Positions 8,305 through 18,051 of a stretch of DNA of 64,000 nucleotides are shown here, piece by piece. The stretch comes from a bacterium (GTDB lineage: Bacteria > UBP4 > UBA4092 > JAOAEQ01), in contig JAOAEQ010000014.1 of the NCBI GenBank assembly GCA_026416715.1, positions 22,106-86,105 of the forward strand, written 5' to 3'. The translations under genes and the position numbers were made by a program. The notes beneath the pieces were generated by a model. The model ran no database searches, was not told the origin of the DNA, and saw only the letters and a program-made list of their open reading frames with translations. Each line of letters begins with the position of its first letter. Position 1 is the first letter of the stretch.

Positions 8305-9351
8305 ATGGGCAAGAAGATTCGATTAACCCAGTATGCCAGTTGTTCCGGCTGAGCAGCGAAAGCGAGCCAGAAGGCACTCGCGCAAGTTCTGCGCGAGCTT
8401 CCGAAAATAACCCATTCGAATCTGCTCCTTGGTATCGATGTACCGGACGATGCTGGGGTATTCCGATTGAATCCATCGACTACTATCGTTCAAACCGTAG
8501 ATTTCTTTACTCCGATAGTTGACGACCCCTATGATTTCGGACAGATAGCCGCAGCAAATTCTGTTAGCGATATTTACGCTATGGGCGGAACGCCGGTTAC
8601 CGCATTAAACGTAGTTTGTTTTCCAACTGTAACACTGGGAACCAAAGTTCTCGCGGCGATACTTCGTGGTGGACTTGATAAACTTAACGAAGCGGGAGTA
8701 GTTATTGTCGGCGGACATACGGTAGAAGATGCGGAACCGAAATATGGAATGGCGGTAACGGGAATAGTTGACCCGAAAAGAGTTGTTACTATTGCAGGCG
8801 CAAAACCGGGTGACCAACTGATTCTAACTAAACCGCTAGGGATAGGCACGATAACGACTGCGCTGAAATTCGGGAAAGCGAATAAACAAGCGGTAGCGGA
8901 AGCGGTTGCTGTGATGAAACAACTCAATAAAACGGCGGCGCAGGTTATGACCCGACTCGGAGTTAATGCAGCAACCGATATAACCGGATTCGGATTGCTC
9001 GGTCATGCGTATGAAATGGCTGAGTTAAGTAAAGTCAGTTTGGCTATCAATGCCTTGCGGGTTCCTATTCTAACCCCAGCAATTCCGCTAGCGAAAAAAG
9101 GGGTCTTTTCCGGCAGCGCATCGAAAACACTTAATTTCTTACAAGGAAAACTTGGGATTAGTCCTGAGATACCGCAGTATCTCATCAACTTACTTGCAGA
9201 CGCCCAAACTTCCGGCGGACTCCTGATTTCTGTTCCGAAGAAGAAATCGCAGAAACTTTTATCCGCATTGCACAAGGCGGGAATACAAGAAGCAGTTACC
9301 ATCGGAGAAGTTATTCCTTCTAGCAAAAATAAAATAATAATATTCAGCTAA
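8305..9351 (+). CDS. selD: Selenophosphate synthetase containing selenocysteine (in-frame UGA)
   Basis: The frame from ATG 8305 runs through a TGA at 8350-8352 to a stop at 9351: 349 codons, the normal SelD length. The start reads MGKKIRLTQY, then ASCSG-U-AAK, where the UGA falls exactly at the catalytic Cys/Sec position (residue 16) three residues before the essential Lys (K19). Downstream come NLLLGIDVPDDAGVF and VQTVDFFTPIVDDPYDFG, then glycine-rich ATP-binding segments such as VGGHTVEDAEPKYG. SelD makes selenophosphate from selenide and ATP for selenocysteine and selenouridine synthesis. A gene finder that stops at UGA would start it falsely at TTG 8467. No selA, selB or tRNA-Sec is in the window. 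Confidence 0.93.
8377..8397 (+). promoter_or_regulatory. Candidate bacterial SECIS hairpin in selD
   Basis: CTCGCGCA (8377-8384) and TGCGCGAG (8390-8397) form a perfect eight-pair stem with the five-base loop AGTTC. The loop begins 33 bases after the UGA and contains a G followed by U near its 5' side, as expected for SelB-bound bacterial SECIS elements. A competing weaker hairpin, GCGAG/CTCGC (8362-8366/8377-8381), lies nearer the UGA. Placement inside the coding region right after UGA is the bacterial arrangement. Confidence 0.7.
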
Positions 9352-16433: not shown

Positions 16434-16807
16434 GTTGATAAACCTCTTAGAAAAGCTAGAATAATAACGGATATAATATCATAACAAATCATTGGATTTC
16501 TATTCTCTTTTTTAAAAACAATAGAAAAAATTTGCGTTTGATATTTTAATTTTATAAGAAAACCAGTAAGATTGTATAAAAGATGTAAGTAGGGAACGTT
16601 TCCTGCGTAAGTTGGCTATTTTGTGTGTCCAGAATATGGAGGCGTGGCAGCATTAGGAAATTTGGTATTTGAGCAACTGGTTATGCCGGTTCGTGAATAA
16701 CCCCAAGTTTGGACTTAGAAACGACAGTGTTGATATACATCCTGTGGTTTTAACCTTGAATTAAGAAAAGAAAAACGCCTATTCTAAAATTTGGGTTAAT
16801 CGTTAAG
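16434..16807. other. 374-base gap with no recognised feature
   Basis: The stretch between the stop of the GH172 gene and the start of argC (both minus) is AT-rich next to argC. I found no credible ORF, RNA gene or strong terminator. The argC promoter must lie here or further upstream, but no consensus pair stands out. Confidence 0.5.
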
Positions 16808-17890
16808 TTAATACGGTAGTTCTTTTCGGTTTTTCCCGCCAGGCCAGTTTTCCAATCCACCAAACGCATAGGGAAGCCGGTCTTCAAACCGTCCGATTTC
16901 CGGTAACGGTTTCGTTCTCCCGATTTGATACCAATATGCGGTACTTGTCCAATCCCCTTGTCGGTCGTTCGCATGACCGTGTTCGATAGAAACTAGTAGT
17001 GACCGTTCAAAATATATTGGGTCTTCTATATGGAACCGATATTGAGAATGTTTGCCAGTATAATCCGCGTTTCCTTTAAAGTGGTATCCGAAATAAGGAG
17101 TACAATACGGCTGATGTAATCCATGGTAATTCCACGCACCACAAAAATAATCTTCAGTTCCAGTTCCATGTAGGTCTGGTGGCCATTTTTTACCGTCGAT
17201 GAAAATCATATCGTCTCCTTCACCCCACCAGCCGGGTTCATTGGTATCAATATGTAAACAACAGCCGACATAATGCCCTTTTCCTTGCGTATCGAGAATA
17301 ACATAATTATTTTTTCCAGTTGTATTTAAACGTTCGAGGTTCCCGCGAGCATTTTTCCCAATTTTTTCCGACTTCTTAACCACGAGTTGCCGACGCCAAT
17401 GCGCATGGAATCGCGCAAGGTCTTCCGGCACGTCATCCCATTCCTGATAATCAATATAGAAATAGAGGAAACTATCTTTATCAGCATCATTCGTTACGGT
17501 TATTTTCGCGCTCGTCGCATACGGCATCGGAAACCAGCAATTTAATCCCAGATAAAACGCTTGCAACGGGAGTGATTGGAAATACGTCGCTTTCCCATGA
17601 CCGAGTCCGAAAAAATCACCGAGCGGCGATAACACTGATGGCGTTTTTTCTCCATCCCAAAACATCCGAAGTACTAACCCACGAAGATTATTATCCGCTT
17701 CTTTAGTCGTCATCCAAATATGACGAATACATCCTGGCCCATTCATTTCTCCAAGCACCACTGTTTTCCCAGCGGGAATAATCCAGTTATCCGCATTTCC
17801 ACCGGTTACATCATACGACGACCAGCGCCGTGACCGTATTCCGGTTTTTAATTTCGCTAAACTTGATAATGAAGTTAATCCAAAATCCAT
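16808..17890 (-). CDS. GH172 (DUF2961) glycoside hydrolase
   Basis: 360 residues matching DUF2961 along most of the length. GPGCIRHIWMT, the central GEGDDMIFIDG and LHGTGTEDYFCGAW are family hallmarks; the acidic residues in the last two motifs correspond to the catalytic region described for GH172 furanosidases. There is no signal peptide, so this copy is probably cytoplasmic. Known members act on fructofuranosides or arabinofuranosides, and the substrate here is not predictable. It is transcribed divergently from a UroD-like gene across a 161-base AT-rich spacer that probably contains both promoters. Confidence 0.9.
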   Translation of the reverse strand: MDFGLTSLSSLAKLKTGIRSRRWSSYDVTGGNADNWIIPAGKTVVLGEMNGPGCIRHIWMTTKEADNNLRGLVLRMFWDGEKTPSVLSPLGDFFGLGHGKATYFQSLPLQAFYLGLNCWFPMPYATSAKITVTNDADKDSFLYFYIDYQEWDDVPEDLARFHAHWRRQLVVKKSEKIGKNARGNLERLNTTGKNNYVILDTQGKGHYVGCCLHIDTNEPGWWGEGDDMIFIDGKKWPPDLHGTGTEDYFCGAWNYHGLHQPYCTPYFGYHFKGNADYTGKHSQYRFHIEDPIYFERSLLVSIEHGHANDRQGDWTSTAYWYQIGRTKPLPEIGRFEDRLPYAFGGLENWPGGKNRKELPY

Positions 17891-18051
17891 AAATAAATCC
17901 TTTCAATTCCAACGATATTTGCTAATTCCATCAATTGAGTAATATTGTATCCTATCAAAATCATATTGAGCAACTTCTATAAATTTTGAGATATAATATA
18001 TTGATTTTTCGATATTTAATTTTATATCTTATATTAGTCTTTATTTAAATT

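Follow-up and report, generated by a model that had tools for sequence, protein, structure and literature searches.

A selD gene with an in-frame UGA and a predicted selenocysteine in the N-terminal metal motif of MvhA-type hydrogenases

RESULTS

The reading frame of selD extends through an in-frame UGA

The window, a 64-kb stretch of bacterial DNA, contained a selD gene with one in-frame TGA codon. The following features were located in and around this codon.

8305..9351, + strand: selD, selenide, water dikinase; 348 aa, selenocysteine (Sec) predicted at residue 16
8350..8352, + strand: UGA codon predicted to be read as Sec, at the catalytic Cys/Sec site (Cys/Sec column of 82 selD genes)
8467..9351, + strand: shortened ORF expected from standard gene calling; 294 aa, TTG start
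8362..8381, + strand: candidate bacterial SECIS hairpin; stem GCGAGCC / GGC(AC)UCGC, loop AGAA at 8369-8372
8377..8397, + strand: second hairpin, CUCGCGCA-AGUUC-UGCGCGAG, found in the minimum-free-energy fold of 8345-8400

As the original prediction had proposed, the selD frame continued upstream of the TTG through a single TGA (8350-8352); it began with the ATG at 8305 and ended with the TAA at 9349-9351. The N-terminal residues were MGKKIRLTQYASCSG-U-AAKASQKALAQVL..., and the predicted Sec opened the motif U16-A-A-K19, which has a Lys three residues past the UGA (UxxK). A naive ORF call from the TTG at 8467 dropped 54 N-terminal residues, and the description of selD as hidden was fair as regards ORF callers. 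The read-through SelD matched TIGR00476 with 374.7 bits (cut-off, 125), residues 6-314 aligning with positions 1-310 of the 311-position profile, and contained AIRS and AIRS_C domains. It also aligned over most of its length with the solved SelD proteins 3u0o and 2yye. In these alignments the UGA fell on the catalytic Cys, confirming the placement of the TGA exactly at the Cys/Sec site with the Lys three residues on.

The catalytic codon was then compared via tblastn in a set of 82 selD genes, which consisted of 80 loci plus two genomes of the host's phylum. The codon was TGA in 37 genes (a count that includes the window's own gene, L016, once) and TGT or TGC in 45, and nothing else was found; hence, the alignment with SelD homologs that had been suggested as a check gave Cys or Sec at this column in 82 of 82 cases. 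According to their records, the genes with UGA came from Chloroflexota, Planctomycetota, Geobacter, Thermodesulfobacteriota, Thermodesulfovibrio, and Clostridia-like taxa, and those with Cys came almost entirely from Bacilli. The one other genome of the host's phylum that was compared also had a UGA-containing selD. Judging from this alignment, the UGA at the Cys/Sec column of selD is not a product of chance. The statement that some SelD proteins carry Sec agrees with published data, since about 19% of the SelD genes in a prokaryote reference set do so (PMC4561486).

One could argue that the UGA is a real stop codon or a sequencing error, and that selD is either a pseudogene or begins with the TTG at 8467, from which an ORF does indeed run. 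However, TGA was present at the same codon in 36 other selD genes, including that of the phylum's second genome, and the TTG form would have neither the catalytic residue nor the conserved Lys. The presence of Sec machinery in the genome (see below) also speaks against a real stop or a pseudogene, and we regard this explanation as very unlikely compared with a UGA that is read as Sec.

Two hairpins lie downstream of the selD UGA

Bacterial SECIS hairpins come straight after the UGA. In folding of the selD sequence, the hairpin at 8362-8381 placed its 4-nt loop 17-20 nt past the UGA and the loop G 18 nt past it, which was also the placement of hairpins in other UGA-containing selD genes. The folding signal of the post-UGA region was modest and came from a single sequence (z, -1.73; 14 of 200 synonymous shuffles were as low). 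In a broader comparison with synonymous-codon shuffles, the region after the catalytic codon was more stably folded in 30 UGA-containing selD genes (mean z, -1.05; 60% below -1) but scarcely so in 30 Cys-containing selD genes (mean z, -0.22; 20% below -1). An Rfam scan of the 64-kb window yielded no match. We infer that the hairpin at 8362-8381 is a candidate SECIS element. In longer folds, the stronger 8377-8397 hairpin forms at the expense of the first one, which leaves the exact selD SECIS ambiguous. This second hairpin has a perfect, GC-rich 8-bp stem, lies within the selD coding sequence, and competes with the candidate SECIS; it may be an alternative SECIS candidate or incidental.

The genome encodes the machinery for Sec decoding

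The host genome (2.96 Mb in 64 contigs, estimated to be 100% complete and 0.4% contaminated) was searched for selA, selB, and tRNA-Sec (selC), and all three were found. A single tRNA-Sec scored above the Rfam cut-off (contig C7; 70.7 bits versus 47), and ARAGORN agreed in calling it tRNA-SeC with the anticodon tca. The adjoining selB was a 638-aa frame that matched TIGR00475 with 417 bits over positions 2-580 of 581, the C-terminal part included. The selA gene, located on contig C11, encoded 457 aa and scored 608.5 bits over profile positions 1-443 of 455. Thus, all four genes of the bacterial Sec-decoding trait (selA, selB, selC, and selD) were present, with selC beside selB; selA and selD, in contrast, sat apart from that pair. 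These findings support the proposal that the organism decodes UGA as Sec.

In the pathway that these genes suggest, SelD would make selenophosphate, its predicted activity, and SelA would use the selenophosphate to make Sec-tRNA-Sec. SelB would bring Sec-tRNA-Sec to the ribosome on meeting a hairpin just past the selD UGA. Because selenophosphate from SelD would feed Sec-tRNA-Sec synthesis, SelD would depend on its own product.

A screen for UGA-interrupted frames yields one strong case, mvhA

To look beyond selD, we screened about 35% of the genome (1.04 of 2.96 Mb) for UGA-interrupted frames; the screened stretches included contig C36, which was picked by an mvhD search. In the first 908 kb, 17-18 frames were interrupted by TGA versus 16 by TAG, and TGA interruptions in the screen were no more common than those by TAG (16) or TAA (44). 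As the screen showed no excess of TGA, its candidates count only together with homology. The same numbers bear on the idea that UGA is read genome-wide as another residue, such as Trp, and not specifically as Sec. Such a reassignment is at odds with the similar TGA and TAG counts in those 908 kb, with the positions of the selD and mvhA UGA codons (both at Cys), and with the presence of a tRNA-Sec whose anticodon is tca. We came across nothing in its favor and consider it extremely improbable, and Sec-specific decoding remains the preferred reading.

In the roughly 1.04 Mb screened, one strong UGA-interrupted case emerged.

L158 (G000:C36), 16550-18010: MvhA/VhuA-like hydrogenase large subunit gene (mvhA), UGA at 16739

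This gene bears out, for at least one locus, the expectation that other genes are hidden or truncated by UGA: a standard ORF caller starts mvhA at 16757, and the first 69 residues are lost, including the metal motif.

Several other candidates were dropped, namely, frames fused to tRNA genes (L147 and L151), a leader frame ahead of a normal start (L140), and short chance frames. On contig C36 itself, Sec was rejected for HdrA, whose motif is DCAAC (i.e., Cys), and for MvhD, which has no TGA. A separate observation was made on contig C3 (L135:11816-12196), where a protein with a zinc ribbon and a DUF2007-like part has an in-frame UGA in the linker. The match was weak (22.9 bits versus a cut-off of 25.7), and the UGA could be a case of read-through, a mutation, or an error. 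In the phylum's other genome (G001), a peroxiredoxin gene (L109, about 1500-1870) has an in-frame UGA within DDTPGU, a motif that matches the known TxxU selenoprotein form of peroxiredoxin. The screen overlooked this Sec-peroxiredoxin on the G001 loci and is therefore not exhaustive.

Further searches of the host genome found no molybdopterin oxidoreductase/formate dehydrogenase, selenouridine synthase, or HesB-like protein. Two AhpC-type matches were found, neither of which contained a UGA, and a GRDB search gave no match anywhere, controls included. The absence of a detected formate dehydrogenase sets the host apart from most Sec-using bacteria, as FdhA is found in 67 of 75 (89%) of them (PMC1794560).

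The missing families would fit a circular, self-serving system in which Sec decoding is kept solely for SelD, and SelD is reported as the single selenoprotein in some YbbB-containing species (PMC1794560). Against this stands the UGA-containing mvhA on C36, a contig whose GC content is similar to that of the rest of the genome, and we think that a SelD-only system is unlikely. Taken together, the sequence comparisons indicate that the selD product is almost certainly a selenide, water dikinase with a catalytic Sec16 and that the Sec system would also serve at least one further gene, the UGA-containing mvhA. As part of an Hdr-Mvh cluster, this gene encodes a [NiFe]-hydrogenase large subunit of the MvhA/VhuA-like type.

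The mvhA UGA replaces a Cys of the N-terminal metal motif

The N-terminal metal motif of the C36 MvhA was RICGVUPGAHH, in which the UGA corresponds to the second Cys of CxxC; in the C-terminal DPCxxC motif, both Cys codons (TGT and TGT) were kept. The protein matched the solved MvhA 5odc with an E value of 7.6e-123. The alignment was ungapped around the UGA site and paired residue 64 with the second Cys of RICGIC in 5odc. C36 MvhA belongs to PF00374, and its best NCBIfam match was VhuA (NF041785; 431 bits, under the cut-off of 800).

Neighboring genes included hdrC-, hdrB-, and hdrA-like ORFs, a NuoF-like ORF, a NuoG-HdrA-like fusion, mvhD, mvhG, and a gene for a HycI maturation protease; the names hdrB, hdrC, NuoF, NuoG, and mvhG were assigned by reading the sequences, not by search. 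The homology to 5odc and the mvhDG-hdr context place the gene in the MvhA/VhuA type (group 3c-like). In methanogens, the Hdr-Mvh type of complex bifurcates electrons. HdrA seemed to be split in the C36 cluster (L158:9999-14908), as a 275-aa N-terminal HdrA ORF was followed two genes on by an HdrA-like part behind a NuoG-like protein.

The same UGA codon is found in Nitrospirota homologs

Among 37 genomes with a Sec-SelD, the same mvhA UGA codon was found in a Thermodesulfovibrio. A search of 395 genomes of its phylum (Nitrospirota) revealed eleven more, giving 12 Nitrospirota UGA-mvhA genes (L171, L199, L202, and L218-L226) in two further clades. Each of the 13 UGA-mvhA genes had its TGA precisely at the codon for the second Cys of that N-terminal motif (CxxC) and retained both C-terminal Cys residues; the other 51 mvhA homologs that were compared had Cys at this codon. 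Several of the UGA-mvhA genes were on contigs of 1.8-2.0 Mb belonging to the Thermodesulfovibrio group, which makes an assembly error unlikely. When Sec or Cys was mapped onto a tree of 56 MvhA proteins, a quick tree with long branches, well-supported branches forced at least three changes.

A hairpin with a 5-8-bp stem and a 6-8-nt loop, which includes a G about 24 nt past the UGA, followed the mvhA UGA codon. Its sequence was CAGCCU-CAGUGA-AGGCUG in the Thermodesulfovibrio group and UAUGGCCU-CGGGUA-AGGCCGUA in the host. This SECIS-like hairpin formed in 11 of the 13 UGA-mvhA genes, with the other two register-shifted by two, versus 9 of 38 Cys homologs. Relative to synonymous shuffles, the UGA genes had a mean z of -1.26, compared with -0.53 in the Cys genes. 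Two Cys-containing mvhA genes (L227 and L228) lie within the Thermodesulfovibrio Sec clade and have lost the loop G and one outer pair of the hairpin; they are a natural Sec/Cys switch pair.

DISCUSSION

The Sec-containing SelD described here is an ordinary case of a well-known type and is not new to biology. It shares TIGR00476, the catalytic column, UxxK, and full length with known Sec-SelDs such as those of Haemophilus influenzae (HI0200m, named in PMC1914089) and Aquifex aeolicus (2yye). The flank CSGUAAK is without the second Cys of the Escherichia coli GCGCK, as are many of the Sec-SelDs that were compared. What differs is mainly the host, whose phylum is represented by two genomes.

In the case of the hydrogenase, the difference lies in the active site. 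The Ni and Fe of [NiFe] hydrogenases are bridged by the second Cys of each CxxC, and the first Cys of each serves as a terminal Ni ligand; in the known [NiFeSe] enzymes, Sec takes the position of the first C-terminal Cys, which corresponds to Cys530 (PMC7324405). C36 MvhA shares the PF00374 superfamily and a Sec predicted at an active-site Cys with the [NiFeSe], VhuA/VhuU, and FrhA selenoproteins. Unlike these proteins, it has CxxU at the N-terminal motif and keeps both Cys residues of the C-terminal DPCxxC, so that the classical [NiFeSe] hallmark, Sec at the first Cys of that motif, is not present. A 2026 review and census gives UxxC alone for FrhA and MvhA, with no CxxU (PMC13188914). Since the site is the N-terminal second Cys and the census lists UxxC rather than CxxU, the predicted Sec is a different ligand from that of the known [NiFeSe] enzymes. 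By homology, it would bridge Ni and Fe.

A literature search that reached a minority of the subscription journals turned up no account of a [NiFe] hydrogenase whose N-terminal motif contains Sec. One report attributes, in passages that do not name the Sec site, a "selenocysteine-containing hydrogenase (MvhA2DG)" to Desulfobacterium autotrophicum (PMC2702500). The host and Nitrospirota, including Thermodesulfovibrio, very probably share a class of MvhA/VhuA-type [NiFe] hydrogenases in which Sec replaces the second Cys of the N-terminal pair, by homology the predicted Ni-Fe bridge, and not the terminal Ni ligand as in known [NiFeSe] enzymes, with at least three changes on the tree.

With the selD result, a thinly sampled phylum gains a Sec-using organism, and a gene that would be cut short in automatic annotation is corrected. 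This organism appears to be without formate dehydrogenase, the usual reason to retain Sec. The part worth pursuing is the hydrogenase that was reached via selD rather than the SelD itself. Thermodesulfovibrio is a genus with cultured members, and the presence of UGA-mvhA in this group makes the prediction testable by selenium analysis, EPR, or crystallography. If the prediction is true, a bridging Se would be new active-site chemistry for [NiFe] enzymes.
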